Translations under genes and position numbers: made by a program
Assembly: GCF_016864015.1 (NCBI RefSeq)
Contig: NZ_CP045067.1
Span: 3,854,001 to 3,918,000 of the forward strand
Direction of reading: 5' to 3'
DNA: 64,000 bases
From: Lacinutrix sp. WUR7
Lineage (GTDB): Bacteria; Bacteroidota; Bacteroidia; Flavobacteriales; Flavobacteriaceae
The notes under the pieces: generated by a model
Told to the model about the DNA's origin: nothing
Databases searched by the model: none
The model's input: the letters and a program-made list of their open reading frames with translations, nothing else
In this document: piece by piece, positions 3,852-55,300 of the stretch
Position numbering within the stretch: position 1 is the first letter of the stretch
Layout: every line of letters starts with the position of its first letter

Positions 3852-3894
3852 CAAAAGTAGGGCAACAAACTAGAAATTAGAATGACCTAGGTCA
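3852..3894 (-). promoter_or_regulatory. Activator-type promoter of the YtxH operon
   Basis: On the minus strand TGACCTAGGTCA (3883-3894) is followed after exactly 23 bases by TACTTTTG (3852-3859), a perfect Bacteroidetes -7 element. The palindrome centre falls near -41. It lies back to back with the promoter of the gene at 4000. Confidence 0.82.
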
Positions 3895-3936
3895 CTCTGA
3901 CAAAAATTAATAACAGGATAAAAAAAAATAGCCAAA

Positions 3937-3979
3937 TGATGTAAGTCATTCCTTTTTGAGACAAATCATCTTACTTTAG
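3937..3979 (+). promoter_or_regulatory. Activator-type promoter of the gene at 4000
   Basis: TGATGTAAGTCA (3937-3948) is followed after 23 bases by TACTTTAG (3972-3979), 5 of 6 fixed positions of TAnnTTTG. It is divergent from the YtxH promoter; the two palindromes are 42 bases apart. Confidence 0.78.
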
Positions 3980-3999
3980 ACCTACAATAAGTAATTACC

Positions 4000-4470
4000 A
4001 TGGAATCTAAAATAAGAGAAACAACCCAAAAGCGCATTTTTATAAAATCATATCCAAAATTTCAGCAAATAGAAGCACTAATAAAAGGGATGAACCTACC
4101 TGAGAATAAAAATCAACAAATCTCTATTATTGGTAAGTTTGATGAAGAACATTTGGATGCTACTAAAAATTTAACTGCTTTAGAAGAGGAAATGGAAACA
4201 AAATGCAAAGCGTTATTTCCATACCCGATAGACTTTGGCATTCTTTCCAATCCTGATATTGGTACCATTTTCATTACAGGATTTCTTGTATCCACATTTT
4301 TACAAGAAATAGAACGCAAAGAAATTGGCGCCATGCTAACGGGGCCTTATGGAATTTTAAGAGGCTTAGGAATATACCCTGAAAGTGCTGCATTAAATTT
4401 AAAAGCATTACAACTTGGACGCTACTTATTAATAATTAGAGGCACCAAAAAGGAGTTAAAAGTGTTATAA
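4000..4470 (+). CDS. Hypothetical stress protein with glycine-rich hydrophobic core
   Basis: A 156-residue protein. Residues 1-70 are polar with an alternating pattern (ISIIGKF), and about 80-130 hold a Gly-rich hydrophobic stretch (IGTIFITGFLVSTF, then GAMLTGPYGILRGLGI). The pattern recalls YflT/DUF1269-type general stress proteins, in which a small alpha/beta domain precedes a Gly-rich hairpin, but the similarity is weak and I do not claim the family. It is a single-gene unit with its own activator promoter and no cotranscribed downstream gene. Confidence 0.7.
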   Translation: MESKIRETTQKRIFIKSYPKFQQIEALIKGMNLPENKNQQISIIGKFDEEHLDATKNLTALEEEMETKCKALFPYPIDFGILSNPDIGTIFITGFLVSTFLQEIERKEIGAMLTGPYGILRGLGIYPESAALNLKALQLGRYLLIIRGTKKELKVL

Positions 4471-4836
4471 AAAAAATATAAGATAAGTACTAAATACGTT
4501 CTAGCTTTAAGTCGCAAAACCCCAAACATATTGGTTGTTTTACAAGTATTATACATGCTTTATTTTCTACTTATAGCAGTTTGTATCCATCGATTCCGTG
4601 ATACCTTGATACCTTGATGCCTTGATGCCTTGATACCTTGATACCTTGATACCTTGATACCTTGATAAGGTATAAAATGTATAACATACTTTTCATACCA
4701 TCTCGATTTTAAATGCATTACCACCATAAAAAATCATACTTCTATTTTTTTTAAAGAACGATATGGCATTAATGATATAACTAAATTAATGGATATTTGA
4801 TTGCTGTAAAATGACTTCCAATTGGATTTTTTTTTT
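4471..4836. other. Convergent intergenic region with an octamer tandem repeat
   Basis: This 366-base gap between two convergent genes holds no convincing ORF longer than 50 codons and no TGA-N6-TCA site. Its only notable structure is the octamer repeat listed separately. A short TCCAATTGGA palindrome at 4818-4827 followed by a T run could end plus-strand transcripts. Confidence 0.6.
4601..4664. repeat. Tandem octamer repeat, eight copies
   Basis: Eight head-to-tail copies of an 8-base unit run from 4601: units 1-2 and 5-8 read ATACCTTG, units 3-4 read ATGCCTTG. The array is preceded by a degenerate unit (ATTCCGTG) and followed by ATAAGGTAT, which could fold back on the last units. It lies outside any gene. 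Confidence 0.95.
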
Positions 4837-7233
4837 CTAATTAGGCATTGGCTTTTTATCCAAAATACTTTTTTCTGATTTATTCATATTTTCGATACCT
4901 TGTAATAAAGCATCTGGATTAAAAGAAATACTATCTATACCTTCGTTAATCAAAAAAGTTGCAAATTCTGGAAAGTCACTAGGTGCTTGACCACACAAAC
5001 CAATTTTAGTTTTTGTTGTTTTCGCGGAATGGATTGCCATGGAAATCATCTTTTTTGCTGCTTGATCATTTTCGTCAAATAGCTTACCCATTAATTGCGA
5101 ATCTCTATCAATACCTAATGTTAGTTGGGTAAGATCATTAGAACCTATGGAGAATCCATCAAATATTTCAGCAAATTGTTCCGCCAAAATCACATTACTA
5201 GGAATCTCTACCATAGTATACACTTCCAGTCCATTTTTACCTCGTTTCAACCCATTATTCTCTAAACTGACCAATACTTTTTCACCTTCTTTTATTGTTC
5301 TACAAAACGGCACCATTACTTTTAGGTTAGTAAGTCCCATAACCTCACGTACTTTTTTAATCGCCCTACATTCCAATGCAAATCCATCTTTATACAGATC
5401 ACTATAGTAGCGTGACGCTCCTCTAAAACCTAACATTGGATTCTCTTCTTTAGGTTCAAATTGAGCTCCACCAATTAAATTGGCATATTCATTGGTTTTA
5501 AAATCACTTAGTCGTACAATGACTTCTTTAGGATAAAAAGCAGCTGCAATAGTTGCAATACCTTGTGATAACTTATCTACAAAATATTCCGTTTTCTCAG
5601 AATAGGTTTTAGTAATTTCGATTATCTCTTTTTGAATGGCAACATCCTCTATAGTATTAAACTTTACCAAAGCCATAGGATGCACTTTTACCAAGTGTGT
5701 GATAATGAATTCCATGCGTAACAATCCTACTCCATTATTTGGATAAAACGATAGTTGGAATGCATTTTCTGGATCGGCAAGTATCATTTTCACTTCGGTC
5801 TTGGGTAGTTTAATATTTGAAAAATCAATTTCTTTTTTTTCAAAAGCACACTTTCCTTGGTAGATATATCCCGTTTTTCCTTGGGAACAAGTAACCGTTA
5901 TTATTTCACCATTCTGGATAATATCTGTAGCATTATCGCATCCAACAATTGCTGGAACACCTAATTCTCTAGCTACAATAGCAGCATGACTTGTTCTACC
6001 TCCTTTGTTAGTTATTATACCTGCTACTTGTTTTAATAATGGATCCCAATCTGGCGTAATCGTATCTGTCACAATAATAGTATCTGACGATAGTTGATCT
6101 GCATCTTTTGGAGATTTTAGAAGGCGTGCTTTTCCTACTGCTATTTTAGATCCTACCGCATTTCCTTGCGATAATAATTCCCCTTTTTCTAATAAATTAT
6201 ATTCAATATGGATATTTTTATTTCTTGTTTGATGCACCGTTTCTGGTCGCGCTTGTGTAACAAACAACTCTCCAGACAAACCGTCTTTTGCCCATTCAAT
6301 ATCCATTGCTTTTTGATAATGGTCTTCTATACATTTTGCCCACTTTGCCATAATAACTACCTCTGCATCTGTTAATACAAATTGTTGTTGTTTTTCTTCA
6401 GGGGTTTCTATATTTATGGTTGCAATGTCATTAGAAGATTCTGAATAAATCATGGTTAACTTCTTATCTCCTAATTTTTTTTGAATGATGGGATACTTAT
6501 TCGTTTTCAAACTTGGTTTAAAGACATAATATTCGTCTGGACTTACAACACCTTGCACAATGTTTTCCCCTAAACCCCAAACACCAGAAAGGTGAATTAT
6601 ATTATTAAAACCAGACTCTGGCTCTATGGTAAAACCCACTCCAGAACATCCTTTATCAGAACGAACCATAAGTTGCACGCCAACAGATAAAGCTATGGTA
6701 TCATGCTTAAAACCTTTGTCTTCCCGATATTTTATAGCACGATTGGTATATAAAGATGCCATGCACTTTTTAATTGCCTTTAGTAATTCTTGTTCGCCTT
6801 TTATATTTAAAAAGGTTTCGTGTTGTCCTGCAAAACTAGCATCTGGTAAGTCTTCGGCTGTGGCACTACTTCTTACAGCAACCGCACAATTACTTTCTTT
6901 ACATAAATTTTTATAAGCGGATTTTATTTCATCTGAAAAAACGGCTGAAAAAGTTCCATTTAAAATATAGTTACGAGCTTGTTCTCCAATAGCTTCTAAA
7001 TTAGAATAGGACGCTCTGTCGAGTTGAGTTAAAAGTACTTTTAAAGATTCTTGAATCTCATTCCCCTCTAAAAACTCCCAAAAAGCTGCAGAAGTTGTTG
7101 CAAATCCGTTTGGAACACGAACTCCTTTTGAGGTTAACTTATTATACATCTCTCCTAGAGAAGCATTCTTCCCTCCTACAAGACTTATATCACTAATAGC
7201 AATTTCACTAAACTTTTTGATACGCGATTCCAT
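4837..7233 (-). CDS. ppsA: Phosphoenolpyruvate synthase
   Basis: This 798-residue protein makes PEP from pyruvate and ATP, giving AMP and phosphate, at the entry to gluconeogenesis. The N-terminal ATP-grasp-type domain (1-340) contains GGKNASLGEM and VRSSATAEDLPDASFAGQ. The central phosphohistidine domain has GGRTSHAAIVARELG. The C-terminal PEP/pyruvate barrel holds FSIGSNDLTQLTLGIDRD and GLCGQAPSD. Length and motif order are normal for PpsA. It is monocistronic with its own TGA-N6-TCA promoter. The other PEP-forming enzyme in the window, PEP carboxykinase, lies behind the same promoter type, so the regulon appears to command PEP supply. Confidence 0.96.
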   Translation of the reverse strand: MESRIKKFSEIAISDISLVGGKNASLGEMYNKLTSKGVRVPNGFATTSAAFWEFLEGNEIQESLKVLLTQLDRASYSNLEAIGEQARNYILNGTFSAVFSDEIKSAYKNLCKESNCAVAVRSSATAEDLPDASFAGQHETFLNIKGEQELLKAIKKCMASLYTNRAIKYREDKGFKHDTIALSVGVQLMVRSDKGCSGVGFTIEPESGFNNIIHLSGVWGLGENIVQGVVSPDEYYVFKPSLKTNKYPIIQKKLGDKKLTMIYSESSNDIATINIETPEEKQQQFVLTDAEVVIMAKWAKCIEDHYQKAMDIEWAKDGLSGELFVTQARPETVHQTRNKNIHIEYNLLEKGELLSQGNAVGSKIAVGKARLLKSPKDADQLSSDTIIVTDTITPDWDPLLKQVAGIITNKGGRTSHAAIVARELGVPAIVGCDNATDIIQNGEIITVTCSQGKTGYIYQGKCAFEKKEIDFSNIKLPKTEVKMILADPENAFQLSFYPNNGVGLLRMEFIITHLVKVHPMALVKFNTIEDVAIQKEIIEITKTYSEKTEYFVDKLSQGIATIAAAFYPKEVIVRLSDFKTNEYANLIGGAQFEPKEENPMLGFRGASRYYSDLYKDGFALECRAIKKVREVMGLTNLKVMVPFCRTIKEGEKVLVSLENNGLKRGKNGLEVYTMVEIPSNVILAEQFAEIFDGFSIGSNDLTQLTLGIDRDSQLMGKLFDENDQAAKKMISMAIHSAKTTKTKIGLCGQAPSDFPEFATFLINEGIDSISFNPDALLQGIENMNKSEKSILDKKPMPN

Positions 7234-7257: not shown

Positions 7258-7300
7258 TAAAAATACTCATTCTGTTTTCTATTCTAAATGACTAAAGTCA
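7258..7300 (-). promoter_or_regulatory. Activator-type promoter of ppsA
   Basis: On the minus strand the palindrome at 7289-7300 (TGACTTTAGTCA) is followed after 23 bases by TATTTTTA (7258-7265), 5 of 6 positions of TAnnTTTG. The predicted leader is about 20 bases. Confidence 0.75.
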
Positions 7301-7569: not shown

Positions 7570-8124
7570 TCATTTTTTTTTCAATTCTAGGTTTAATTTT
7601 TTTTGGACTTTTAAGATTTCTCCTTTTCCATCCATAAAGACCACCTTTTTTTCTTTTCCTTTTGTTATAATAAATTTAAATCGTTCTTTTTTCTGTTTGC
7701 CAGAATAGTGTGTTAATTTATAATGATCCTTTGTTATTAACCAACCAGGAAATGCTTTTGCCATAGCGTTTCTAACCTCTAAATTTGGTGCCGTATTTTT
7801 AAAGTGCTCTACGGTACTTAATAACTCCCCTTCCTTATTGTAAGTGGTCACTATTTTACTGTTTTTTCCTTTCAAAATTACTTGATACGTTTCATAGTCT
7901 TCCTCAGCATCCATGTTTCTATTTACATATACCTCTTCTTCAATGAATTCGATAGGAATTGCATAAAATTCCGTCATTTCAAAATCACCAAAGTCAGTAT
8001 CGATGGCTTCAATAATGACTCCTGGAACTTTGTCTTTTTTAATTTTTGCTTGAAAAAGCACGCCTTGGCCATAAGATTGCATTGTCAACCCTATTAAAAT
8101 TAGGCCTAAAATAAATTTTTTCAT
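7570..8124 (-). CDS. Secreted PepSY/BLIP-like protein
   Basis: This 184-residue protein has a classical signal peptide (MKKFILGLILIGLTMQSYGQ, cleaved after about residue 20). The mature part is rich in Lys and Glu, with repeated beta-type segments (YQVILKGKNSKIVTTYNKEG; RFKFIITKGKEKKVVFMDGKGEI) that resemble the PepSY-like/BLIP fold of periplasmic Bacteroidetes proteins; the fold assignment is tentative. It has its own promoter with a perfect -7 element about 95 bases upstream and its own terminator, so it is a single-gene unit of the regulon. Confidence 0.78.
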   Translation of the reverse strand: MKKFILGLILIGLTMQSYGQGVLFQAKIKKDKVPGVIIEAIDTDFGDFEMTEFYAIPIEFIEEEVYVNRNMDAEEDYETYQVILKGKNSKIVTTYNKEGELLSTVEHFKNTAPNLEVRNAMAKAFPGWLITKDHYKLTHYSGKQKKERFKFIITKGKEKKVVFMDGKGEILKVQKKLNLELKKK

Positions 8125-8219: not shown

Positions 8220-8262
8220 CAAATTTAAAATGAATAGTCTTGAGACGAAATGACTTGAATCA
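8220..8262 (-). promoter_or_regulatory. Activator-type promoter of the secreted PepSY-like gene
   Basis: On the minus strand the palindrome at 8251-8262 (TGATTCAAGTCA) is followed after exactly 23 bases by TAAATTTG (8220-8227), a perfect -7 element. I found this site by searching for the pattern after defining it elsewhere, which makes it a useful test case. Confidence 0.8.
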
Positions 8263-8537: not shown

Positions 8538-8580
8538 TGACTCAAATCATTTGACATGGCGTGAATTCCAATTATTTTTG
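8538..8580 (+). promoter_or_regulatory. Activator-type promoter of the dodecin gene
   Basis: TGACTCAAATCA (8538-8549) is followed directly by TTTG, a perfect -33 element, and after 23 bases by TATTTTTG (8573-8580), a perfect -7 element. It shows how the palindrome abuts the -33 box. Confidence 0.85.
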
Positions 8581-8609: not shown

Positions 8610-8813
8610 ATGTCTGTTTTAAAAGTAATTGAAGTATTAGGTAATTCTACCGTAAGTTTTGATGATGCGGTTAAAAACGTTGTTGCAGAAGTTTCCAAAA
8701 CAGTAAAAAACATTAAATCTGTTTACGTAAAAGATATGGAGGCAAAAGTTACTAATAATCAAGTAGTTCAATATCGTGTGACCACAAAAGTGTCTTTTGC
8801 TATTATGGATTAG
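8610..8813 (+). CDS. Dodecin
   Basis: This 67-residue protein has the dodecin pattern: KVIEVLGNSTVSFDDAVKNV at the N-terminus, a helix with VSKTVKNIKSVYVKDMEA, and a closing VVQYRVTTKVSFAI strand. Dodecins form hollow dodecamers that store flavins, or coenzyme A in some bacteria, and protect against free flavin photochemistry. A perfect activator-type promoter lies 30 bases upstream. A hairpin after the stop suggests a single-gene unit. Confidence 0.9.
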   Translation: MSVLKVIEVLGNSTVSFDDAVKNVVAEVSKTVKNIKSVYVKDMEAKVTNNQVVQYRVTTKVSFAIMD

Positions 8814-9673: not shown

Positions 9674-10582
9674 TTACAAGCTTGACTTCACCAATAACTC
9701 CAATTTCTTTCTAGCATTTTTAATGCGTTTTCCAGAAGTTGAAAAATCTTTCCAAGGATCTTCGATTTGTTCTAGTCTTTTAAAGATATTTTGAATATTA
9801 CAAAACTGTGCATGCAACTTTTCATCCTCTAATTCCTTCCAAAATATAGGTGTAGCCACAGGAGCCTTTTCTATAGCTCTTACTGAATATGGTGCAACAC
9901 TTGTTTGCCCATAAGAATTTCTTAGATAGTCTATATACAAACGTCCCTCGCGTTTATTCTTGCGTATTGCAGTTGTGAATTTAGCTGGGTTTTGCATGGC
10001 AATATAATTGGATATATCCTTTGCAAAAGCATGTACTTTATTGAAGTCTTCTTTTTGTTTTAAGGGAACATTAACGTGCAATCCTTTAGAACCTGTAGTC
10101 ATTAAAAAGGTTGTAAAACCTAAATCCTTTTCTAGTAACAATCGTAAAGCCTTAGCGCCTTCAACTGCTAATGCAAAGTTTTCTTTTGGAGGATCTAAAT
10201 CAAAAATAAGTGTATCTGGATACTCCATATTATCTATGTTACTTAATGAAATATGAAAAGTAACCACATACTGATTCACTAAATAAAGGAGTGTCTCTTT
10301 ATTGTCACAAATCACTTGATTCACCCAACCTCCAACTTTCCTAACTTCTTCCGTTTTTATCCAATCAGGAAAATAGGCAGATGCATTTTTTTGAAAGAAT
10401 CCATCTTCAGCAATACCATTGGGGAATCGTTGCATGGTTAAAGGATGATTCTTTAAATAAGGAAGGATATAATCGGCTATCTTTTCGTAATAAGCCATTA
10501 CGTCTTGTTTTAGTATTCCAGAATTAGGGAATAGAATTTTATCTTTATGAGTAATTTGTATATGGTGATTATCTGTCTTCAT
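9674..10582 (-). CDS. Stand-alone LigD-type (archaeo-eukaryotic primase) polymerase
   Basis: This 302-residue protein matches the polymerase domain of LigD, which fills ends during non-homologous end joining. Visible motifs are LTMQRFPNGI near the N-terminus, the catalytic DLDPP (metal-binding Asp pair), TTGSKGLHVNVPL (the SxGxH motif) and YIDYLRN. Length equals a single Pol domain; there is no ligase or phosphoesterase domain, and no Ku gene in this window. It is divergent from a sigma-like gene and has its own activator promoter, placing a DNA-repair enzyme in the stress regulon. Confidence 0.9.
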   Translation of the reverse strand: MKTDNHHIQITHKDKILFPNSGILKQDVMAYYEKIADYILPYLKNHPLTMQRFPNGIAEDGFFQKNASAYFPDWIKTEEVRKVGGWVNQVICDNKETLLYLVNQYVVTFHISLSNIDNMEYPDTLIFDLDPPKENFALAVEGAKALRLLLEKDLGFTTFLMTTGSKGLHVNVPLKQKEDFNKVHAFAKDISNYIAMQNPAKFTTAIRKNKREGRLYIDYLRNSYGQTSVAPYSVRAIEKAPVATPIFWKELEDEKLHAQFCNIQNIFKRLEQIEDPWKDFSTSGKRIKNARKKLELLVKSSL

Positions 10583-10666: not shown

Positions 10667-10709
10667 TAAATATACTTCTGCTTATCGAAGTTTAAAATGA
10701 TACAAGTCA
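10667..10709 (-). promoter_or_regulatory. Activator-type promoter of the LigD-type polymerase gene
   Basis: On the minus strand the palindrome at 10698-10709 (TGACTTGTATCA) is followed after 23 bases by TATATTTA (10667-10674), 5 of 6 positions. It is divergent from the promoter at 10734. Confidence 0.76.
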
Positions 10710-10733: not shown

Positions 10734-10776
10734 TGATCTAAGTCATTTTACATCTAATGTTAAGTTACCACCTTTA
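10734..10776 (+). promoter_or_regulatory. Activator-type promoter of the sigma-like gene
   Basis: TGATCTAAGTCA (10734-10745) is followed after 23 bases by CACCTTTA (10769-10776), only 4 of 6 fixed -7 positions, the weakest of the set. The predicted leader is about 20 bases. Confidence 0.62.
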
Positions 10777-10801: not shown

Positions 10802-11578
10802 ATGGAAACAAATGTTTCATATTTCGAAAATAAAAAGGAGTTCCGATTATTCGTAACAAAATCCTTTCCGAATCTAATTAAACTAAAAAAAGAAGGAGAT
10901 CAAACCTCCTTTAATGCATTAGTGCTAAAAATAATGCCTCAAATAAGACAGTATGTGAATACACAATTAAATGCTGCTATTAGAAAAGGGGATTTCTCCA
11001 AAAACAAGTATAAAGCTGACGATATAATAGATCAACTATTTATTGAAATTTACGACCATATTGAAGAGGTTGAAAAAGAAGAACACTTTTATCTATGGCT
11101 ATTTAAAAAAACCAATGCATTGTTGGATGATATTATTGTAGAAGAAGAGTTTGATGATTTTTTCTTTAAAAACATTGATGACTATTCTAGACCAGAATGG
11201 GATGCTATGCAAGAAAAGTATAGCTCGGATGCAGAAGGAGATGGACACTTACGATTGATTGAAGAATTTGATGACAGGTCTTACAATCACAATGATTACA
11301 CTTTAAATCATGTATTTATTGAGAATAAAGAAAAAGGCTGGATTGAAAAAATAGATGCAGATTTAAGCGATGAAGAAATTAAAAATCACATCGAAATGGT
11401 ATTACACAACTTACCATATGCTATGCGAAATGTGTTTGAACTATCTACCATCCAAAAACTAGAGCTGGAAGAAATTGCCGAAATACGAAAAAATACAGTG
11501 GAAGAAGTAACACAACTTTTAAAAGATGCGAAGAAAGCTTTACAGCTAAGTTTTTTCAATAGATATCCAAACGATTAA
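10802..11578 (+). CDS. Sigma-70-like protein with a long acidic linker
   Basis: This 258-residue protein has a region-2-like N-terminal half (FNALVLKIMPQIRQYVNTQL; DDIIDQLFIEIYDHIEE; LWLFKKTNALLDDII) and a region-4-like C-terminal half (LHNLPYAMRNVFELSTIQKL; LEEIAEIRKNTVEEVTQLLK). A very acidic linker of about 75 residues separates them, longer than in usual ECF sigma factors. Region 4 has Glu/Val where a basic recognition helix is expected (NTVEEVTQLLKDAKKAL), so promoter recognition may be altered or lost. It precedes a FWKDE-type coiled-coil gene by 31 bases and is divergent from the LigD-type polymerase. Confidence 0.7.
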   Translation: METNVSYFENKKEFRLFVTKSFPNLIKLKKEGDQTSFNALVLKIMPQIRQYVNTQLNAAIRKGDFSKNKYKADDIIDQLFIEIYDHIEEVEKEEHFYLWLFKKTNALLDDIIVEEEFDDFFFKNIDDYSRPEWDAMQEKYSSDAEGDGHLRLIEEFDDRSYNHNDYTLNHVFIENKEKGWIEKIDADLSDEEIKNHIEMVLHNLPYAMRNVFELSTIQKLELEEIAEIRKNTVEEVTQLLKDAKKALQLSFFNRYPND

Positions 11579-18698: not shown

Positions 18699-19367
18699 TT
18701 ATAAATATATTGGAGAATATTCGACTTCCAATTGATTGATCACATTCGCAATTCCTGGAGCATGATACGCCGCGATTTCGGCATCCTCTTTTTCTTTCAT
18801 AGAACGCACAGTTCCGCTTAATGTTAACTCTTGATTATGAATAGCCACTTTAATGTTTTTGGCATCCATATTTGCCGAACGTTCAAATGCTTTTTTAATT
18901 TGACTTTCCACATTCTGTGGCGTTACTTTCGGCTTTACATCAATATTATTGATTACTTCTTTAACACCATATAAATGCTCGATGGTTCTTTTTGCAAAAC
19001 TCTTTTGGTACTCCCATTCTAGTTCTCCAGTTAAATAAATTATTCCATCTTCTACTGTAACAATAATATCTTCGGAAGGTACAGAGGCATTCCACTCTAA
19101 AGCACTTATTGCTGCTTTTGCTATTTCTATATCCGATTTTTTATCGCTATCTGTGTATTTCACTTTAATCTCTTCAGCCACAGCTTTTACGCCAGAGATA
19201 CGCTTAACAGCATTTTCAATTGCTGTTTTTTTTGGTAAGTTACTTACCATTCCAGTAAGTGTTACAATACCATTGTTTACGGTTACACCAATCTCGGTTT
19301 CCTCAATATTGGGTTGCCATTTTAATTCGGTTAAAACGTCATTTTTAATTTCTAAATCTGTTTTCAT
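18699..19367 (-). CDS. Triple-BON-domain protein, paralogue A
   Basis: This 222-residue protein without signal peptide has three consecutive BON domains (about 4-72, 77-145, 150-220), each with the pattern of an IVTLTGMVSN-like strand followed by a GVKAV- or GVKEV-type helix start. BON domains bind phospholipid membranes or, in OsmY-like proteins, protect the envelope during osmotic stress. It is 30-50 per cent similar by eye to the two upstream paralogues. It heads an operon with the dehydrogenase and probably the permease and ATPase. Confidence 0.9.
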   Translation of the reverse strand: MKTDLEIKNDVLTELKWQPNIEETEIGVTVNNGIVTLTGMVSNLPKKTAIENAVKRISGVKAVAEEIKVKYTDSDKKSDIEIAKAAISALEWNASVPSEDIIVTVEDGIIYLTGELEWEYQKSFAKRTIEHLYGVKEVINNIDVKPKVTPQNVESQIKKAFERSANMDAKNIKVAIHNQELTLSGTVRSMKEKEDAEIAAYHAPGIANVINQLEVEYSPIYL

Positions 19368-19406: not shown

Positions 19407-19449
19407 TAAAGTTACTGCGGTAAATAATATTATATGCTGACCTATGTCA
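19407..19449 (-). promoter_or_regulatory. Activator-type promoter of BON paralogue A
   Basis: On the minus strand the palindrome at 19438-19449 (TGACATAGGTCA) is followed after 23 bases by TAACTTTA (19407-19414), 5 of 6 positions of TAnnTTTG. Confidence 0.78.
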
Positions 19450-19539: not shown

Positions 19540-20187
19540 TTAATACTCCACTTCCAACTCGTTTTCCACATTCCATACTCCTGGTGCGTAAAAAGCAGTT
19601 CGTCTTGCATCTTCTTTTTCTTTTAACGAATGTACTTTACCTGTTAACGTTACAGTATGACCATCTATTTTTACAGTAATGTTATTTGCATCAATATCTG
19701 CTGAACGTTCGAACGCTTTTTTGATTTTTTGTTCTATATTTATAGGTATTTCTTCATCATTTATAATAATATCATTAGTTATGCTTTTTATACCATCAAT
19801 ATATTCTAAGCTTTCTATTGCTTCTCTTTTTTGATAGGCCCATTTTACTGTACCTGATAAGAAAACATAACCATCTTTAACTTTTACACTAATCTTTTCT
19901 TGTGGTACAGAGGTATTCCATTCTAAATCGAAAAGGATTTTTTTGGCAATGTCTGTATCATTAAAGTTTGCTCTGCATTTAACTTCAATACCATCCACAA
20001 CAGCTTTAACTCCTTTTACTTTTTTCGCAGCGTTTATAGTCATTATTTTCTCCGCTAAATTGCTAACTATACCAGTAAGCGTAACAATACGATTTTTAAC
20101 TTCTACTCCTATTTCCGCTTTTCTGAGAATTGGCTGCCATATTAATTCTTCTAGGATGTTATTTTTAATTTCTAAATCTATTTTCAT
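19540..20187 (-). CDS. Triple-BON-domain protein, paralogue B
   Basis: This 215-residue protein has three BON domains in tandem (about 4-70, 74-140, 145-213) and no signal peptide, so it is probably cytosolic or peripheral to the inner membrane. Its last 45 residues are nearly identical to paralogue C (KVHSLKEKEDARRTAFYAPG, then VWNVENELEVEY against VWSVENELEVEY), showing recent duplication or gene conversion. It has its own activator promoter and terminator and so is an independent unit. Confidence 0.9.
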   Translation of the reverse strand: MKIDLEIKNNILEELIWQPILRKAEIGVEVKNRIVTLTGIVSNLAEKIMTINAAKKVKGVKAVVDGIEVKCRANFNDTDIAKKILFDLEWNTSVPQEKISVKVKDGYVFLSGTVKWAYQKREAIESLEYIDGIKSITNDIIINDEEIPINIEQKIKKAFERSADIDANNITVKIDGHTVTLTGKVHSLKEKEDARRTAFYAPGVWNVENELEVEY

Positions 20188-20225: not shown

Positions 20226-20268
20226 CAAAATTACCAAAGTAAATTGTACGAATTATTGACCTAGGTCA
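20226..20268 (-). promoter_or_regulatory. Activator-type promoter of BON paralogue B
   Basis: The perfect palindrome TGACCTAGGTCA (20257-20268) is followed on the minus strand after 23 bases by TAATTTTG (20226-20233), a perfect -7 element. Confidence 0.86.
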
Positions 20269-21061: not shown

Positions 21062-21104
21062 CAAAGATATAAGGAACCTAAAACACTGACGCTGACCTAC
21101 ATCA
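21062..21104 (-). promoter_or_regulatory. Activator-type promoter of BON paralogue C
   Basis: On the minus strand the palindrome at 21093-21104 (TGATGTAGGTCA) is followed after 23 bases by TATCTTTG (21062-21069), a perfect -7 element. Confidence 0.85.
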
Positions 21105-21741: not shown

Positions 21742-21784
21742 TAAAGATATTCGATGCTTTAAACAATTATCATGACCTAGGTCA
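21742..21784 (-). promoter_or_regulatory. Activator-type promoter of dps
   Basis: The perfect palindrome TGACCTAGGTCA (21773-21784) is followed on the minus strand after 23 bases by TATCTTTA (21742-21749), 5 of 6 positions. Confidence 0.82.
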
Positions 21785-31249: not shown

Positions 31250-31292
31250 CAAAATTATATTGTTATGAGGAGAGACACACTGACCTACGTCA
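31250..31292 (-). promoter_or_regulatory. Activator-type promoter of the ferritin operon
   Basis: On the minus strand the palindrome at 31281-31292 (TGACGTAGGTCA) is followed after 23 bases by TAATTTTG (31250-31257), a perfect -7 element. A second palindrome lies 24 bases further upstream. Confidence 0.87.
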
Positions 31293-31641: not shown

Positions 31642-31684
31642 TAAAAGTACTTGTATTGAAGCACACAAACACTGACCTACGTCA
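31642..31684 (-). promoter_or_regulatory. Activator-type promoter of the DUF5661 gene
   Basis: On the minus strand the palindrome at 31673-31684 (TGACGTAGGTCA) is followed after 23 bases by TACTTTTA (31642-31649), 5 of 6 positions. Confidence 0.8.
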
Positions 31685-33544: not shown

Positions 33545-33587
33545 CAAAGATTACCTTTTTGTACGGCATTAAAAATGACATAGGTCA
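33545..33587 (-). promoter_or_regulatory. Activator-type promoter of the FWKDE 2-MgtC unit
   Basis: On the minus strand the palindrome at 33576-33587 (TGACCTATGTCA) is followed after 23 bases by AATCTTTG (33545-33552), 5 of 6 positions. Confidence 0.78.
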
Positions 33588-37775: not shown

Positions 37776-37780
37776 ATTGT

Positions 37781-39001
37781 TTATTTTTCTGCTTTAATTC
37801 CGTTGATTGCTTTGATGCTTTCAGATATTTCTGAACCATCTAAAAACTTTATAATTTCAGATTGTAAGCCTGTTTTAATACCTGTCTCTATAAATTTAAA
37901 ATCTAAGTTTCCGCTTTCATTTTTAAAAAAGAAGCCATTTATATTTGTGGGCAAATTTTTCTTAAAATTAGTAGGAGTAAATAACTCTTCATTGTTTATA
38001 TCCTTGTTAAATTTCACTTGAAGCGAATCTGGAAGCATTGTTTTTGCTCTTTCCTCTAATATAGGTTTAATGTCTTGTAGCATTGCTTCGGTAGGTCTAA
38101 AACGCAGAGCCGAATTATTAATAAGCCATACATTTTTTGCCTTTGCAGTAATAAACTCAATATTTGCCGTCATACCAGGAATTAATAATCCACCCTCATT
38201 ATCGATATCAATAACGACTTGGTAATTAACCACATTATTGATTTCTATAGGCTGTAATCTAATCTGACTCACTTTTCCGTAAAATTCTTTTTCAGGATAA
38301 GTTTGTATGGTAAAACGAACTTGCATACTATCTTTTATATAACCAATATCACTTTCATCAACATCTGCTAAAATTTGCATTTTAGATAAATCTTCGGCAA
38401 TAATAAACATGGTTGGTGTAGAGAAACTAGCCGCAACTGTTTGTCCTTCATCTACTGTTTTTTCAATAATAATTCCATTAATAGGTGATGAAATTTTAGC
38501 ATAACTAATATTAACCAGAGCATTCGTTAATGAAGCTTGCGCTGCTTTTTTTGAGCTTTCGGCTTGCTCATAACTAAATTTTAACGTGTTATATTCTTGC
38601 TGAGAGATAACCCCTTTTTCAAACAATACTTTATTTCTATTGTATTTATCTTCCGCCTCATTTAGTTGCGCTTGGCTTACTGCTAAATTTGCTCTAGCAG
38701 ATTCCAAAGACGTATTTAACATTTTCATATCCATTTCGGCAAGTAATTGTCCTGCAGTAACCCTGTCATTATAGTCCACATAGATTTTTGCAATCGTACC
38801 AGATATTTGAGTACCAACATCAACGGTATTAATAGCTTCTAATGTACCAGTACTAGAAACATCGGACTCCACATCTCCTTTTTGTATGGAGGTATACGTA
38901 TAATCTAATTTTTTAGATTCCAATTTTGGTTTTAAATAGAAATAGCCTACTACTGCAACTACAATAATTAGTATTATAATTAACCATTTGTATTTTTTCA
39001 T
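37781..39001 (-). CDS. MacA-type periplasmic adaptor (HlyD family)
   Basis: A 406-residue adaptor with an N-terminal membrane anchor (WLIIILIIVVAVVGYFYLKP), biotinyl-lipoyl-like segments (TVDVGTQISGTIAKIYVDYN; ISSPINGIIIEKTVDEGQTV), an alpha-hairpin coiled coil (SARANLAVSQAQLNEAEDKY) and a beta-barrel domain. It links the inner-membrane ABC exporter to an outer-membrane channel; no TolC-like gene is in the window. First gene of a five-gene unit behind an activator promoter. Confidence 0.93.
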   Translation of the reverse strand: MKKYKWLIIILIIVVAVVGYFYLKPKLESKKLDYTYTSIQKGDVESDVSSTGTLEAINTVDVGTQISGTIAKIYVDYNDRVTAGQLLAEMDMKMLNTSLESARANLAVSQAQLNEAEDKYNRNKVLFEKGVISQQEYNTLKFSYEQAESSKKAAQASLTNALVNISYAKISSPINGIIIEKTVDEGQTVAASFSTPTMFIIAEDLSKMQILADVDESDIGYIKDSMQVRFTIQTYPEKEFYGKVSQIRLQPIEINNVVNYQVVIDIDNEGGLLIPGMTANIEFITAKAKNVWLINNSALRFRPTEAMLQDIKPILEERAKTMLPDSLQVKFNKDINNEELFTPTNFKKNLPTNINGFFFKNESGNLDFKFIETGIKTGLQSEIIKFLDGSEISESIKAINGIKAEK

Positions 39002-39022: not shown

Positions 39023-39065
39023 TAAAATTAGCTTGAACTATTCAAAGTTTTAATGATATAAATCA
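39023..39065 (-). promoter_or_regulatory. Activator-type promoter of the MacAB operon
   Basis: On the minus strand the palindrome at 39054-39065 (TGATTTATATCA) is followed after 23 bases by TAATTTTA (39023-39030), 5 of 6 positions. Confidence 0.76.
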
Positions 39066-39138: not shown

Positions 39139-39597
39139 CTATTTATGTAAAACATTAAGTTGCTTAATCAATTCTTCTCCTCCAATCATGTGCTCTGTTA
39201 TTGTAAAAATTTCTTTTCTATTTTTCCGGTAGTCTTTTACAAATAGAGAAAGATCATCTTCCAATTGTTCGTGTTCCGTTCTAAATTTATCGGAAACATA
39301 AGTAAAAGGATCGTCTACCAACTCCGCTAAATGATGAAAATGTTTATTAATACGATCTACTAATGAATTACATTGTTTTTCCACTTGAAGCAGGTTTACT
39401 TCCATTTCAAGCACCAAATCTATATTCTCTTTTTTGGATAGATATAAGAAATATTTATCAATAAGATGATGCAGAAAATTTAAATCGCCTTTATAAAATT
39501 GCATATCCGATTTCCAGTGCTCGGTAAGCGCATACAACTGTGTCCAAGTTGCTTCATGAATAAAGTTGTCTTTGGGTCTGATTCTATAATCATTCAT
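39139..39597 (-). CDS. FWKDE-type coiled-coil protein, paralogue 3
   Basis: A 152-residue helical protein with the most divergent copy of the signature: WKSDMQFYKGDLNFLHHLID at residues 28-47, aligning without gaps to WKGELAFWKDELMFF in paralogue 2. The remainder is charged helix with Leu/Val heptads. Single gene with its own activator promoter, divergent from the third oleate hydratase gene. Function unknown. Confidence 0.72.
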   Translation of the reverse strand: MNDYRIRPKDNFIHEATWTQLYALTEHWKSDMQFYKGDLNFLHHLIDKYFLYLSKKENIDLVLEMEVNLLQVEKQCNSLVDRINKHFHHLAELVDDPFTYVSDKFRTEHEQLEDDLSLFVKDYRKNRKEIFTITEHMIGGEELIKQLNVLHK

Positions 39598-39617: not shown

Positions 39618-39660
39618 TAAAGATAAAGATGAAATTCCCCCAAAGAAATGACTTTGGTCA
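39618..39660 (-). promoter_or_regulatory. Activator-type promoter of FWKDE paralogue 3
   Basis: On the minus strand the palindrome at 39649-39660 (TGACCAAAGTCA) is followed after 23 bases by TATCTTTA (39618-39625), 5 of 6 positions. Confidence 0.78.
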
Positions 39661-39738: not shown

Positions 39739-39781
39739 TGACCTATATCATTTCTGTAAACCATTGCCAACTCTAATTTTG
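39739..39781 (+). promoter_or_regulatory. Activator-type promoter of oleate hydratase paralogue 3
   Basis: TGACCTATATCA (39739-39750) is followed after 23 bases by TAATTTTG (39774-39781), a perfect -7 element, giving a leader of about 33 bases. Confidence 0.87.
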
Positions 39782-39818: not shown

Positions 39819-41393
39819 ATGAGAACTAAAAATTTTAAAGCATATTGTTTAGGTGGTGGACTTGGCTCCCTATCTGCAGCTGTATTTATGATTCGTGATG
39901 GCGGAATTTCAGGAAATCAAATTACTGTTTTCGAAAAACTACCAACACTAGGAGGCTGCTTAGATGGTGCACGTCTTGAAGATGGCAGTTATTCCCTTCG
40001 TGGTGGCAGAATGCTTACCACAGATGCTTATGAATGTTTTTGGGGGTTGTTTAAAGACATCCCATCCATTAACAATAAAGGTATGTCTGTAAAAGACGAA
40101 ACAATTGCCTTTAATAAAAAACACATCGCACACTCTCAAGGTCGTTTAGTAGATAAAAACTGTCATATTGTAGACACTTCTACTATGGGTTTTGATATGC
40201 ATGATAGATTAGAATTTGTTAAACTTCTTGAAGCTTCAGAAGAAAAATTAGGCACCTCAAAAATTACCGATTGGTTATCTCCTGGTTTTTTTAAAACAAA
40301 CTTTTGGTATATGTGGCAAACAACATTTGCTTTTGAACCTTGGCATAGTGCCGTAGAGTTTAAGCGTTATTTACACCGTTTCATGAATGAATTTCCAAGA
40401 ATCAACACACTTGGTGGTGTTAAAAGAACTATTTATAACCAGTACGACTCTTTAGTACTTCCTCTTATAGCTTGGCTTCAAGATAAAGGAGTTCATTTTG
40501 AATTAGCTACTACTGTAGACGATATAAACGTGGAAGATATCGATGGAAAAGTTACTGTTACTTCACTTACAGTAATTAATAAAAAAGGCACTAAACAAGT
40601 TGCAGTTAACCCTGACGATATTGTTATTTTCCAAAATGGCTCTATGGTGGATGCTTCAAGTATTGGTTCTATGGACCATCCTCCTATTAAAAAAACAAAA
40701 GCAGATAGTAAAGGTTGGACGCTTTGGGAAAAACTTGCAAAAGGAAGACCTGACTTTGGAAATCCTGCATCATTTAACAGCAGTATTCCCGAGTCTTTTT
40801 GGGAATCGTTTACAGTAACTTTTAAATCCTCTGATTTTTTTGATAAAATAGAAAAAATGACCGGTAATAAAGCTGGAACTGGAGGACTGGTAACCTTCAA
40901 AGATTCTAATTGGTTAATGTCTGTTGTACTTTATAATCAACCTCATTTTATTGATCAACCGGATGATGTCTATATTCTTTGGGGTTATGCCTTACATGGA
41001 AACCGTGTTGGTGATTTTATACCAAAAACAATGATTGAAAGTAATGGGCAAGACATACTTAAAGAGTTAGCGGGACATTTTAATTTTGATGACAGTGTCT
41101 TTGAAGACGCAGTTTGCGTACCATGCAGAATGCCATATATCACTTCTATGTTTATGCCACGTGCTTACAACGACAGACCAAAACCGGTTCCTGAAAGCTC
41201 CAAAAATCTAGCATTTGTAAGCCAGTTTGTAGAACTTAAAGATGATGTTGTATTTACTGTGGAATATTCTGTTAGAGCTGCGCAAACTGCAGTCTATCAA
41301 TTATTAAATATTGATTTGGAAATACCTAAAATTACAAAACATGATAAATCCCCTAAAGTACTCATAGATTCTTTTTTCAAATCCATTAAATAA
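39819..41393 (+). CDS. Oleate hydratase family protein, paralogue 3
   Basis: A 524-residue FAD-dependent fatty acid hydratase with KAYCLGGGLGSLSAAVFMIRD, GGCLDGARL, RGGRMLTTDAYECFWGL, FEPWHSAVEFKRYLHRF and a C-terminal FVSQFVELKDDVVFTVEYSV. By eye it is close to paralogue 2. The promoter is one of the best of the regulon, so at least this hydratase looks directly activator-controlled. A terminator follows 35 bases after the stop. Confidence 0.93.
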   Translation: MRTKNFKAYCLGGGLGSLSAAVFMIRDGGISGNQITVFEKLPTLGGCLDGARLEDGSYSLRGGRMLTTDAYECFWGLFKDIPSINNKGMSVKDETIAFNKKHIAHSQGRLVDKNCHIVDTSTMGFDMHDRLEFVKLLEASEEKLGTSKITDWLSPGFFKTNFWYMWQTTFAFEPWHSAVEFKRYLHRFMNEFPRINTLGGVKRTIYNQYDSLVLPLIAWLQDKGVHFELATTVDDINVEDIDGKVTVTSLTVINKKGTKQVAVNPDDIVIFQNGSMVDASSIGSMDHPPIKKTKADSKGWTLWEKLAKGRPDFGNPASFNSSIPESFWESFTVTFKSSDFFDKIEKMTGNKAGTGGLVTFKDSNWLMSVVLYNQPHFIDQPDDVYILWGYALHGNRVGDFIPKTMIESNGQDILKELAGHFNFDDSVFEDAVCVPCRMPYITSMFMPRAYNDRPKPVPESSKNLAFVSQFVELKDDVVFTVEYSVRAAQTAVYQLLNIDLEIPKITKHDKSPKVLIDSFFKSIK

Positions 41394-41475: not shown

Positions 41476-41518
41476 TGACGAAAATCATTTACTCACAAGT
41501 TAATAGTTTGTAATTTAG
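41476..41518 (+). promoter_or_regulatory. Activator-type promoter of the UspA gene
   Basis: TGACGAAAATCA (41476-41487) is followed after 23 bases by TAATTTAG (41511-41518), 5 of 6 positions. Confidence 0.76.
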
Positions 41519-41544: not shown

Positions 41545-42414
41545 ATGAAAACGATATTATATGCTACTGATTATTCAGAAAATTCTGTTCCTGCTTTAAA
41601 ATATGCGTATTCGCTAAGTAAAGCCCTTCGAGCGACATTAAAAGTGATTCATGTTTTTGATTATCCAACCTTGTTAGATCATTTTAGTTTAAAAGCCGAA
41701 GATCCATTTCCAGACTTGGAAGGTGATGCTATTAAAAAACATATTTCAAAACTTTATGCGTTTTGTGAAGAACATTTAGGTTCCGATTTAGATAAAATGC
41801 ACATAAAAGTGGAAGCTATTGAAGATAAATCTGTAGTCCACGGCATTACAAAAAAAGCGACTGAGTTGGATGCTTTTTTTATTATTACAGGAATGAAAGG
41901 TGTTAGTGCTATAAAGGAAATCATTATGGGTAGCACTGCTAAAAACCTCCTTAAAAATTCACCTTGTCCAGTACTCACTATTCCAGAAGATGCGAGCCAT
42001 ACCAAAATTAATACTATTGTATATGCCACAGATTTTGAAGAAGAAGACTTAGGCGCCATAAATAAACTAGCAGAAATTGTAGAACCTCTTCAACCTAAAA
42101 TCAAACTTGTTCATGTTTTCCCATTAAAAGAAAAATTAAACATAGCCGAAAAGAAAGAGGTAGAAGATAAAATTCATGAAAAAATTAAATATACCAACGT
42201 AACACTTGATATTTTATATGCAGACGATATATTTAATACCCTTAAAACATACTTTGGCAATTCCAATGCCGATCTAGTTGGCATGCTAGAACGAGAAAAC
42301 CAAATGCTATCCTCACACGTATTCCATAGAGATTTAGTTAAAAAAATGGAATCTTATGGAAAGATTCCTGTGATAAGTTTTAACGCCAAAAATTATGGCA
42401 TATTCCATTTATAA
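41545..42414 (+). CDS. Tandem universal stress protein
   Basis: This 289-residue protein has two USP domains (1-150 and 152-289). The first keeps an ATP-binding site: ILYATDYSENSVPALKYA and the GMKGVSAIKEIIMGSTAKNL motif (GxxG, nine residues, GST). The second starts NTIVYATDFEEEDLGAINK but lacks the glycine motif, so it is probably structural. Tandem USPs are classic members of FNR- or DosR-type low-oxygen regulons. It is followed by a small membrane-protein gene after 27 bases. Confidence 0.92.
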   Translation: MKTILYATDYSENSVPALKYAYSLSKALRATLKVIHVFDYPTLLDHFSLKAEDPFPDLEGDAIKKHISKLYAFCEEHLGSDLDKMHIKVEAIEDKSVVHGITKKATELDAFFIITGMKGVSAIKEIIMGSTAKNLLKNSPCPVLTIPEDASHTKINTIVYATDFEEEDLGAINKLAEIVEPLQPKIKLVHVFPLKEKLNIAEKKEVEDKIHEKIKYTNVTLDILYADDIFNTLKTYFGNSNADLVGMLERENQMLSSHVFHRDLVKKMESYGKIPVISFNAKNYGIFHL

Positions 42415-42905: not shown

Positions 42906-43538
42906 CTATTTTATATTAACAATACCTTCTTCACTTAAAGATTTCATAATAACTTTTACATAATCTTTAACCGTTGTATTAATTTGTTTTGGGTCTACAA
43001 TATCATATGAAGCTACCCAAACTAAAGATTTGTCATTGTTTTCTTTTATATTATATAAAGAAGCTTCAATATGATATACTTTATATTTTTCATAATACCC
43101 ATCATCAAAATAAACATCTTGATATAAGTAATAATATCGGCCAAAACGTTTCCAATAATATCCAGGTCTATATGTCGTACCAGAATATGTTTCTTTTTCA
43201 TCTACCCCTTTTACTGCCGAAATTAAAACAGCGTCAAACCCATCTTTAGAAATTTTTTCTAATTCGGTATTAATGTCGTCTTCTGTTTGTTTTACATTGG
43301 TAAAAGATGGTTCAAATACATCAGAACTGCCCATTGCCTCGATACCACTTTTTTTAAATTCCGAAGTTAATTGTTCTTCAAACTGCTTTCTGGCAGTAAG
43401 ATTATCTGTCATTCCTACAATTAAAACTTTTTTAGGCTTGTAGTTTGTATATTCTTGACTTTTCCAACTATCTCCCATTTTAGTAGATGAACAACCAACC
43501 ATTAGAAATAAAACGATTACTAAATAAACTGCTTTCAT
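42906..43538 (-). CDS. DUF4136-like lipoprotein
   Basis: This 210-residue lipoprotein has a signal with lipobox LMVGC (Cys16), then an alpha/beta domain (KKVLIVGMTDNLTARKQFEE; DGFDAVLISAVKGVDEKET), a Tyr-rich loop (about 125-150: YRPGYYWKRFGRYYYLYQD) and a final SLYNIKENNDKSLVWVASY. The layout resembles periplasmic DUF4136-type lipoproteins; the assignment is moderate. Own activator promoter; shares a bidirectional terminator with the UspA unit. Confidence 0.78.
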   Translation of the reverse strand: MKAVYLVIVLFLMVGCSSTKMGDSWKSQEYTNYKPKKVLIVGMTDNLTARKQFEEQLTSEFKKSGIEAMGSSDVFEPSFTNVKQTEDDINTELEKISKDGFDAVLISAVKGVDEKETYSGTTYRPGYYWKRFGRYYYLYQDVYFDDGYYEKYKVYHIEASLYNIKENNDKSLVWVASYDIVDPKQINTTVKDYVKVIMKSLSEEGIVNIK

Positions 43539-43562
43539 AATATTTTTTTTAAAATTATTATA

Positions 43563-43605
43563 TAAAAATATCTCAATACAAGTTGTATAACAATGATATA
43601 TATCA
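43563..43605 (-). promoter_or_regulatory. Activator-type promoter of the DUF4136-like lipoprotein
   Basis: The palindrome TGATATATATCA (43594-43605) is followed on the minus strand after 23 bases by TATTTTTA (43563-43570), 5 of 6 positions. Confidence 0.74.
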
Positions 43606-43824
43606 GCAGGATATTTAAAATATAGTAAAAATTATTAAATCTCCTATTAGGTAATTATACCACCTAGGCACAAAGACGGAAGCTACTTTTAAAACCCCTA
43701 AACAATTGCTTCCATTCTTTTAATGACGTTTGCTGGTTTTATAATAAGCTGTAAGTTTTTTAACAAAAATGCGTCTAAAAATGTATCTTTAAAACATCTA
43801 TTAATTTAAGAAAGGAACTACAGT

Positions 43825-54300: not shown

Positions 54301-54339
54301 TGAAGAACTACCTTAAGACATTCTTTAAGAATGCGAGTG

Positions 54340-54370
54340 CAAATGTAAATTATTTAGTAATTACTGCAAA
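54340..54370 (-). promoter_or_regulatory. Promoter of the tRNA-His transcript
   Basis: On the minus strand TTTG (54367-54370), 19 bases, then TACATTTG (54340-54347) form a textbook Bacteroidetes promoter about 235 bases upstream of the mature tRNA 5' end, so the precursor would run through the repeat array. Confidence 0.72.
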
Positions 54371-54388
54371 GATTTTTTTGCAAAATTT

Positions 54389-55105
54389 TTACTTTAAATC
54401 AAACAAACTTTCTACGGCTGCATAACGCTCTGTAGTAAAGCCTTCTGCATGGGTTACTCCAATCAATCTTCCTAGGTCTCTAGCTCTATAATCTACACTA
54501 TCTGTAAAATTCTTACTCGAAATAGGCGTTTCAGGCTCTTTACTATTCGCATCAAAAAACTGTGTTTGGTAAGCCAGAACAGATGCCATCTTGGTTTCTA
54601 TAGATCCAGAAATATCTACCACAAAGTCAGGTTCAATATTTTTCCATTGTATATAATGGTATACTTGCTTTGGCCTCCACTGCTCTTGCAGGCTTCCTTC
54701 TACTTCGGTTTCAATCTTTATTAATCCGCTTAAAAAGCAAGCATCACTCACTAACTGACTTCCCTTACCGTGATCTATATGCCTATCATCAATAGCATTA
54801 CATAAAATAATTTCTGGCTGATACTTACGTATCATCTTTATAATCTCTAATTGATGTTGTCGGTTATTAATAAAAAAACCATCCGCAAAACCAAGATTTT
54901 CACGTACAGCAACTCCTAAAATCTTAGCCGCATTTGTAGCTTCTTGTTTTCTAGTTGCCGCAGTACCACGAGTTCCTAGTTCGCCTCGCGTTAAATCTAT
55001 AATACCAACCTTTTTTCCGTTTTTAATTTCTTTTACTATAGTACCACCACAACCTAATTCTACATCATCTGGATGTGCACCAAAGGCTAATATATCTAGT
55101 TTCAT
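54389..55105 (-). CDS. bshB1: Bacillithiol biosynthesis deacetylase BshB1
   Basis: A 238-residue LmbE/PIG-L family enzyme that deacetylates GlcNAc-malate in bacillithiol synthesis. It shows the zinc motif AFGAHPDDVELGCGGT, IIDLTRGELGTRGTAATRK (specific for BshB1), NAIDDRHIDHGKGSQLV and a C-terminal AEGF region. Length and motifs match BshB1 of Bacteroidetes. Bacillithiol would support the thiol-linked DinB and OsmC-type proteins in this window. Confidence 0.95.
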   Translation of the reverse strand: MKLDILAFGAHPDDVELGCGGTIVKEIKNGKKVGIIDLTRGELGTRGTAATRKQEATNAAKILGVAVRENLGFADGFFINNRQHQLEIIKMIRKYQPEIILCNAIDDRHIDHGKGSQLVSDACFLSGLIKIETEVEGSLQEQWRPKQVYHYIQWKNIEPDFVVDISGSIETKMASVLAYQTQFFDANSKEPETPISSKNFTDSVDYRARDLGRLIGVTHAEGFTTERYAAVESLFDLK

Positions 55106-55257
55106 ATGTGTTTTTCGTTTTTCTGAATATCAAAAATATTAAAAAGAAGACAGATAACCGCTTTCTTTTTAACTAGCAATCATTATTGTTTGAAATAAAT
55201 TAAAGAATTCTTAATAAAGAATAGTCAAAATTATAAAATTTGCAATACTTCGAAGTA

Positions 55258-55300
55258 TGATAATAGTCATAAATATTACTTCCTAATGACTATACCTTTA
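55258..55300 (+). promoter_or_regulatory. Activator-type promoter of the SLC13-pckA unit
   Basis: TGATAATAGTCA (55258-55269) is followed after 23 bases by TACCTTTA (55293-55300), 5 of 6 positions. It is the only regulon-type promoter found right of 43605. Confidence 0.74.

Follow-up and report, generated by a model that had tools for sequence, protein, structure and literature searches.

This paper concerns a window of 64,000 nucleotides from Lacinutrix sp. WUR7 (bases 3854001-3918000 of its single 3.99-Mb contig) and 20 short palindromes within it, TGA-N6-TCA, each placed at a fixed distance from a promoter element. Judging from the sequence, the window quite likely contains a large part of a regulon for stress survival, controlled by a two-component system, the response regulator of which is a fusion of a receiver domain (REC) with a CRP-like, DNA-binding half. 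To our knowledge, stress survival in the Bacteroidota works without the usual alternative sigma factors, and its coordination is poorly known. An initial annotation of this DNA had described the palindromes and their spacing and had named no regulator; the REC-CRP fusion, encoded near the left end of the window, is the likely one. The new element in this proposal is class II CRP/FNR control exerted through a response-regulator fusion, with a regulon that would lie mostly in one variable block of DNA. The evidence comes from the sites, their geometry, the domain architecture of the fusion, synteny, and co-occurrence across genomes, all as read from sequence.

Sites and promoter geometry

The window contains 42 TGA-N6-TCA palindromes, 20 of which have a TAnnTTTG-like element exactly 23 bp downstream and aimed into a gene (Table 1). 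Our recount is identical to that of the initial annotation: the -7 element matches at six of six positions in 7 sites, at five in 12, and at four in one (10734). Several uncounted palindromes, for example those at 7883, 28079, 34535 and 46189, also have a four-of-six match at spacing 23. When at least five matches are required, spacing 23 occurs 19 times, while no other spacing from 0 to 60 occurs more than three times. Palindromes with one mismatch show no such peak (8 at spacing 23, and 2 to 15 at other spacings), which suggests that full half-sites matter. The sites do lie within positions 3852-55300, the extent first given to the regulon, but other features of the system, including the regulator and its kinase, reach beyond it.

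The initial annotation had staked its claim on enrichment of this spacing over the whole genome, and that enrichment is found. At spacing 23 the strict pattern is found 18 times, while 30 other spacings average 1.4 (maximum 4); for TGAY-N4-RTCA followed by TAnnTTTR the figures are 41 and 1.27 (maximum 4). Sixteen of these 41 genome sites are in the window and 21 lie between 3.84 and 3.94 Mb; the remainder fall at 2.05-2.075 Mb (7), 2.66-2.70 Mb (5), 3.64-3.655 Mb (3) and elsewhere (5). The palindrome centre is intergenic in 169 of 180 spacing-23 sites, even though open reading frames of at least 100 amino acids cover 84% of the DNA, and 138 of the 180 have a start codon within 100 bp. Palindromes paired with the element at other spacings are mostly intergenic as well (54 of 57, with a start codon within 100 bp in 22), and the spacing control is therefore conservative.

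Class II activators of the CRP/FNR type bind at a position centred on -41.5. In Flavobacterium johnsoniae, a promoter study (PMC6847099) gives the -7 element as T-12, A-11, T-8, T-7, T-6 and G-5, with transcription starting 4-5 nt downstream, G virtually absent at both N positions and generally no clear -33 element. Calculated with this numbering (PMC6847099), the palindrome occupies -47 to -36 with its centre at -41.5, in good agreement with the class II position near -41 put forward in the initial annotation. The fourth base of the -7 element is G in 1.0% of 209 sites, compared with 13.1% of the 4151 TAnnTTTR elements in the same DNA, and G content played no part in choosing the 209. Because this avoidance is in line with that described in the F. 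johnsoniae study (PMC6847099), the sites are probably parts of real promoters. The geometry is general in the order and not peculiar to this regulon: at least one strict site occurs in 169 of 296 genomes.

A REC-CRP fusion behind a histidine kinase

The fusion is a protein of 360 amino acids in which three Pfam domains score above their cut-offs: Response_reg (PF00072, 95.1 bits), cNMP_binding (PF00027, 77.6 bits) and HTH_Crp_2 (PF13545, 53.2 bits). With cNMP_binding followed by HTH_Crp, it is a member of the CRP/FNR superfamily. The genome has 10 genes with a cNMP domain, and this one (1781-2863) is the one in the window. In 11 aligned fusion sequences, receiver residues D13, D56, D104 and K108 are invariant, as is a helix of the form G-x-A-x-E-T-A-I-R. 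The conserved phospho-acceptor Asp and the Lys, together with the adjacent histidine kinase gene, identify the protein as a predicted response regulator. The kinase has 924 amino acids with several PAS domains, HisKA and HATPase_c; its first ATG is at -974 (negative positions lie upstream of the window), and its gene overlaps that of the fusion by 20 bp. In 23 of 24 relatives, a kinase gene immediately precedes that of the fusion on the same strand.

An AlphaFold2 model of the fusion (predicted local distance difference test 78.1, predicted template modelling score 0.59) had CRP/FNR-type structures as all 50 of the Foldseek matches listed, which matched the CRP/FNR half. None of the best 60 PDB sequences covered both halves, and none of the best 25 NCBIfam models named the fusion. 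The NCBIfam model for CRP scored 75.5 bits (cut-off 266). With a receiver at its N-terminus and 64.1 bits against a cut-off of 228 for the Fnr model (NF008365), the fusion is not FNR proper, nor is it FixK (NF050806, 74.8 against 300 bits). An identity as a DosR/NarL-type regulator was also rejected: the output domain is HTH_Crp_2 instead of a LuxR-type helix-turn-helix, and the Pfam table contains no LuxR-type domain for this protein.

The kinase-fusion circuit is itself associated with sites. One at 3851054 heads a row of closely spaced patatin-like, MscS-like, kinase and regulator genes in the Lacinutrix genome, and a direct check of 23 relatives found a site immediately in front of the kinase gene in 13. 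Since sites head either the kinase gene or this whole row, the circuit is probably self-regulated in many genomes.

Among the named relatives listed, the closest fusion is that of Lacinutrix himadriensis (96% identical). In a sample of the phylum, the fusion (E <= 1e-60) was present in 32 of 198 genomes, none of the 32 outside the class, and the named holders among the matches listed range from Flavobacteriaceae to Pontibacter, Rufibacter, Dyadobacter and Runella. Matches of the REC-CRP query in five genomes (L077, L078, L084, L116 and L119) contain one stop codon inside the matched stretch, which may be the gene's own stop near its end. Judging by titles and abstract openings, with incomplete coverage, we found no description of a REC-CRP regulator or of this regulon in the literature.

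Sites follow the regulator across genomes

Orthologues of the fusion (E <= 1e-100) were found in 27 of 397 genomes of the family. Twenty-one of these 27 holders have the refined motif TGACCYANRTCA-N23-TAnnTTTR (50 sites), compared with 26 of the 370 non-holders (31 sites); TGACCYANRTCA was tightened after the sites of the Lacinutrix genome, G119, G087, G133 and G138 had been viewed, so that this contrast is partly fitted. With the Lacinutrix genome, G087, G133 and G138 removed, the refined motif is still present in 17 of 23 holders.

The sites are also close to the regulator. Of the 50 refined-motif sites in holders, 32 lie within 50 kb of it, where about one would be expected. Within up to 20 kb of the regulator in 24 other genomes (23 of the 26 other holders plus G119; G330, G479 and G631 were left out), spacing 23 occurs 159 times, against 1.44 (maximum 5) per other spacing, and every one of the 24 has at least one spacing-23 site. 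The loci of 19 named relatives, at least three of them from genomes already among the 24, gave 64 occurrences against 0.69 elsewhere, and a pool of 61 more distant loci gave 31 against 0.75. A twofold TGA-N6-TCA operator at a fixed promoter distance thus appears to be tied to the fusion by both co-occurrence and proximity.

A block of variable DNA

From position 43825 to the end of the window, most genes are syntenic with both of two sibling genomes, G448 and G617, mostly at 75-98% identity. From -20 kb to 43538, no gene was convincingly matched at the syntenic place in a comparison covering 100-120 kb of each sibling (there was one 26% match, in G617). On the left side, synteny returns at -48904, adjoining a tRNA-Ser gene (-48725 to -48640) beside which different DNA is found in the siblings; for one gene in the left part (-40169), G448 contains a 76% match. 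The variable DNA between tRNA-Ser and msrB amounts to about 92 kb (-48640 to 43538, or G000:C1:3805360-3897538). Its left part contains imuA-, dnaE2- and imuB-like genes and restriction-modification genes, as named from their sequences.

Nineteen of the 20 window sites and the regulator lie inside DNA that is lacking from the syntenic place in both siblings, and they seem to come or go together. Of the 57 genes between -19412 and 43538, 28 have matches at 55-94% identity within one region of a genome of another genus (G618), including a fusion that is 89% identical; two of the 28 matches point to the same G618 gene. The stretch searched contained no repeat of the tRNA 3' end at least 12 bases long, and no search for integrases was made; we do not claim the block as a defined mobile element. 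The last gene before the border, which encodes a 210-amino-acid protein (42906-43538), has a lipoprotein-like start as read from its sequence. The initial annotation had remarked that the redox-repair genes lack the site. We attribute that absence to genome location, since these genes (43.8 kb onward) belong to the core genome beyond a sharp synteny border.

More than one CRP/FNR regulator

Do all 20 sites belong to one large regulon, as first proposed? Probably not. The gene of a second REC-CRP protein (C1:2070867-2071919) lies inside the site cluster at 2.05-2.075 Mb, and that of an FNR-like protein (C1:2698643-2699320) is on the margin of the cluster at 2.66-2.70 Mb. The first of these clusters heads two Usp genes, an MlaE permease gene and a sigma-like paralogue, and the second heads genes for a hemN-like radical-SAM protein, FixS, a copper-ATPase-like protein, cytochrome c and Cu-oxidase/cytochrome proteins. 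The recognition helices of the three CRP/FNR proteins are alike (GTATETAIR, GIATETLIR and GTATESAIR); none of the seven remaining cNMP genes, judged by sequence only, encodes the GxATExxIR helix. The second REC-CRP and the FNR-like protein appear to use the same geometry with other gene sets and more A/T-rich sites: among 35 sites around the second type of REC-CRP, T fills position 4 in 80% and A position 5 in 57%, while sites around the first type have C at position 4 in 54% and at position 5 in 41% (244 sites).

The siblings help to separate the regulators. G448 has neither fusion and G617 has the second REC-CRP only, while the FNR-like gene is present in both (75-86%). Counted by eye, spacing 23 accounts for 14 of 42 listed matches in G448 and 16 of 57 in G617, compared with 41 of 79 in the Lacinutrix genome. 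Because the site at 55258 is kept in both siblings (G617 C25:105272; G448 C23:310125) without the fusion of the window, it probably belongs to another regulator. We reject the single-regulon reading on account of this site and of the two further CRP/FNR proteins with their own clusters.

The same facts supply the most serious alternative, in which the window sites belong to the FNR-like one-component regulator as parts of a single oxygen regulon and the REC-CRP fusion controls something else. The spacing-23 sites at the FNR-like gene's own cluster, the resemblance of its recognition helix to that of the fusion, and the 14-16 sites retained by the siblings together with the FNR-like gene all favour this idea, and the 55258 site may well belong to that regulator. 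However, the C/G-rich type of site tracks the fusion: neither sibling has a single refined-motif site, although both have the FNR-like gene, and all 24 relatives examined have sites close to the gene for the fusion. We consider this alternative unlikely.

Target genes

Most of the targets named in the initial annotation have Pfam support: YtxH, PPDK/PEP-utilizer, LigD_Prim-Pol, Dodecin, three BON and two Ferritin-fold proteins, and further DUF4010/MgtC, MacB/ABC/HlyD, MCRA, Usp, CitMHS and PEPCK. "Dps", "ppsA" and "oleate hydratase" are names in use for proteins of these families. The sigma-like gene (10802-11578) is weaker, with 20.3 bits in Pfam against a cut-off of 24.1, and its resemblance to extracytoplasmic function (ECF) sigma factors in NCBIfam is also below the cut-offs. 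Each of the two REC-CRP clusters holds one sigma-like gene with a site, and each REC-CRP regulator may control its own sigma factor. The sigma-like proteins at 10802-11578 and at L053:9832-10599 consist of region-2-like and region-4-like parts with a long acidic insert between them, and both score below the family cut-offs.

The target set is of the stress, storage and survival type. In 25 genomes, the Lacinutrix genome included, the commonest targets are Hsp20 (20 genomes), YtxH (15), a conserved 156-amino-acid protein (14) and the kinase (13, the Lacinutrix genome not among them), followed by Usp (12), patatin (8), a carboxymuconolactone-decarboxylase-like protein (7; the name is read from the sequence) and a 128-amino-acid protein (7). 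The 156-amino-acid protein (4000-4470), which has no match in Pfam or NCBIfam, is a core member of the regulon of unassigned function. Outside the clusters, a gene of the S30AE (ribosome hibernation factor) type at L045 (G000:C1:2790726) has a perfect site at spacing 23.

Table 1. Sites, regulatory genes and synteny border in the window (aa, amino acids)
Position	Strand	Sequence	Palindrome	-7 match	Gene or feature
1..1800	+				histidine kinase gene, 3' part
1781..2863	+				REC-cNMP_binding-HTH_Crp fusion, proposed activator of the regulon
3852..3894	-	TGACCTAGGTCA-N23-TACTTTTG	3883	6/6	ytxH (3487-3810)
3937..3979	+	TGATGTAAGTCA-N23-TACTTTAG		5/6	conserved 156-aa protein (4000-4470)
7258..7300	-	TGACTTTAGTCA	7289	5/6	ppsA-like (4837-7233)
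8220..8262	-	TGATTCAAGTCA	8251	6/6	184-aa protein (7570-8124)
8538..8580	+	TGACTCAAATCA		6/6	dodecin (8610-8813)
10667..10709	-	TGACTTGTATCA	10698	5/6	LigD-type primase-polymerase (9674-10582)
10734..10776	+	TGATCTAAGTCA, weak -7 CACCTTTA		4/6	sigma-like gene (10802-11578)
19407..19449	-	TGACATAGGTCA	19438	5/6	BON gene (18699-19367)
20226..20268	-	TGACCTAGGTCA	20257	6/6	BON gene (19540-20187)
21062..21104	-	TGATGTAGGTCA	21093	6/6	BON gene (20361-21014)
21742..21784	-	TGACCTAGGTCA	21773	5/6	Dps-like ferritin-fold gene (21238-21714)
31250..31292	-	TGACGTAGGTCA	31281	6/6	ferritin gene (30673-31182) and downstream genes
31642..31684	-	TGACGTAGGTCA	31673	5/6	DUF5661 gene (88 aa, ATG 56 bp downstream)
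33545..33587	-	TGACCTATGTCA	33576	5/6	128-aa gene (33130-33516), then MgtC/DUF4010 (31849-33123)
39023..39065	-	TGATTTATATCA	39054	5/6	MacAB-type efflux genes (35801-39001)
39618..39660	-	TGACCAAAGTCA	39649	5/6	152-aa protein (39139-39597)
39739..39781	+	TGACCTATATCA		6/6	MCRA/oleate hydratase (39819-41393)
41476..41518	+	TGACGAAAATCA		5/6	Usp (41545-42414)
43539..43824	.				right border of DNA absent from both siblings' syntenic place
43563..43605	-	TGATATATATCA	43594	5/6	210-aa gene (42906-43538)
55258..55300	+	TGATAATAGTCA		5/6	SLC13-pckA genes; core genome

Proposed mechanism and its difficulties

Given the class II position, the gene arrangement and the protein family, the simplest explanation is a kinase signal followed by phosphorylation, binding and activation. 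The multi-PAS histidine kinase would sense some condition, perhaps redox, oxygen or energy state, and phosphorylate the receiver domain of the fusion. The CRP-like dimer would then bind (A/C)TGAY-N-YA-N-RTCAT centred at -41.5 and contact RNA polymerase with the primary sigma factor at TAhhTTTG promoters, in class II activation. Hsp20, YtxH, Usp, BON and ferritin-fold proteins, dodecin and others would be induced, along with the system's own patatin-MscS-kinase-regulator row, and the regulon would be gained or lost as a block, regulator and targets together, on DNA that varies between related species.

Might the fusion instead act at these sites as a repressor or anti-activator? CRP/FNR proteins can repress; however, a centre at -41.5 leaves the -7 element free and is the classical activating position, whereas repressor sites usually vary in position. 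We regard repression as very improbable. The weakness of a -33 element proves nothing about activation, as promoters of F. johnsoniae are described as generally lacking a clear one (PMC6847099). Finally, TAnnTTTR alone is common (4151 in the stretches examined), but an artefact of chance or base composition in A/T-rich intergenic DNA is refuted by the spacing control and can be dismissed: counts at spacing 23 are at least four times those of the next-best spacing and over ten times the mean, whether in the window, the genome or the relatives, and the pattern is rare when reversed.

Several observations count against control of these sites by the kinase and the REC-CRP fusion. The association is imperfect in both directions, with 6 of the 27 holders having no refined-motif site and 26 of the 370 non-holders having one, and the loose motif TGACNYANGTCA was rejected as a clean marker of the regulator (20 of 27 holders and 105 of 370 others). 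Holder genomes may share descent, and the Fisher tests ignore phylogeny. At the 61 distant loci, 33 have no site, 25 have one and 3 have two, so that only the pool is significant, and 23.8 kb of one genome outside the 24 (G150; fusion 49% identical) proved free of sites. In one relative (G529) the fusion is not preceded by the kinase, and a site immediately in front of the kinase gene is missing from 10 of 23 relatives as well as from the Lacinutrix genome. Depletion of G is slight at the third base of the -7 element (12.9% against 18.5%). The similarity of the three recognition helices makes cross-binding likely, and single sites can therefore not be assigned to one protein. Moreover, DNA binding by the fusion, activation rather than repression, control by phosphorylation and the signal are all points that we infer.

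A broader idea, to which we give slightly less than an even chance, is that in the Bacteroidia REC-CRP fusions serve as master switches for a general stress or dormancy response, within a portable, prewired regulon block. If so, these fusions would do the work that sigma-S, sigma-B or DosR does elsewhere, and kinase, activator and targets would move between genera, with a 23-bp geometry readable by any host of the group. With a candidate regulator, a site, a promoter position and conserved core targets named, the proposal can be tested in members of genera such as Lacinutrix, Polaribacter, Zobellia or Winogradskyella.

Comparison with known systems

The proposed system unites two textbook systems in a single protein and points to a regulon that would move along with its regulator. 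It shares with the class II regulators CRP and FNR of Escherichia coli the twofold TGA-N6-TCA core, the cNMP fold with HTH_Crp and the centre at -41.5. It differs in the N-terminal receiver, the Bacteroidota-type promoter TAnnTTTG and scores far below the model cut-offs.

General stress targets of sigma-S and sigma-B include Dps, Hsp20 and BON proteins, and the target classes overlap with those found here; the promoters in this case combine an activator site with the -7 element usual in Bacteroidota, in place of an alternative-sigma promoter. The DosR regulon of mycobacteria contains Usp, Hsp20 and sensor-kinase genes, and the DosS/DosT-DosR system is therefore similar in gene content. DosR, however, is a LuxR/NarL-type regulator with a different binding site, while the DNA-binding half here is HTH_Crp.

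The nearest logical relative is the FixL-FixJ-FixK cascade of rhizobia, which consists of a PAS histidine kinase, a response regulator and a CRP/FNR-type activator of a low-oxygen regulon. The parts are the same, but in the Lacinutrix system the receiver and the CRP-like activator are one polypeptide, which scores 74.8 bits with the FixK model against a cut-off of 300, and the step carried out by FixJ would be skipped.

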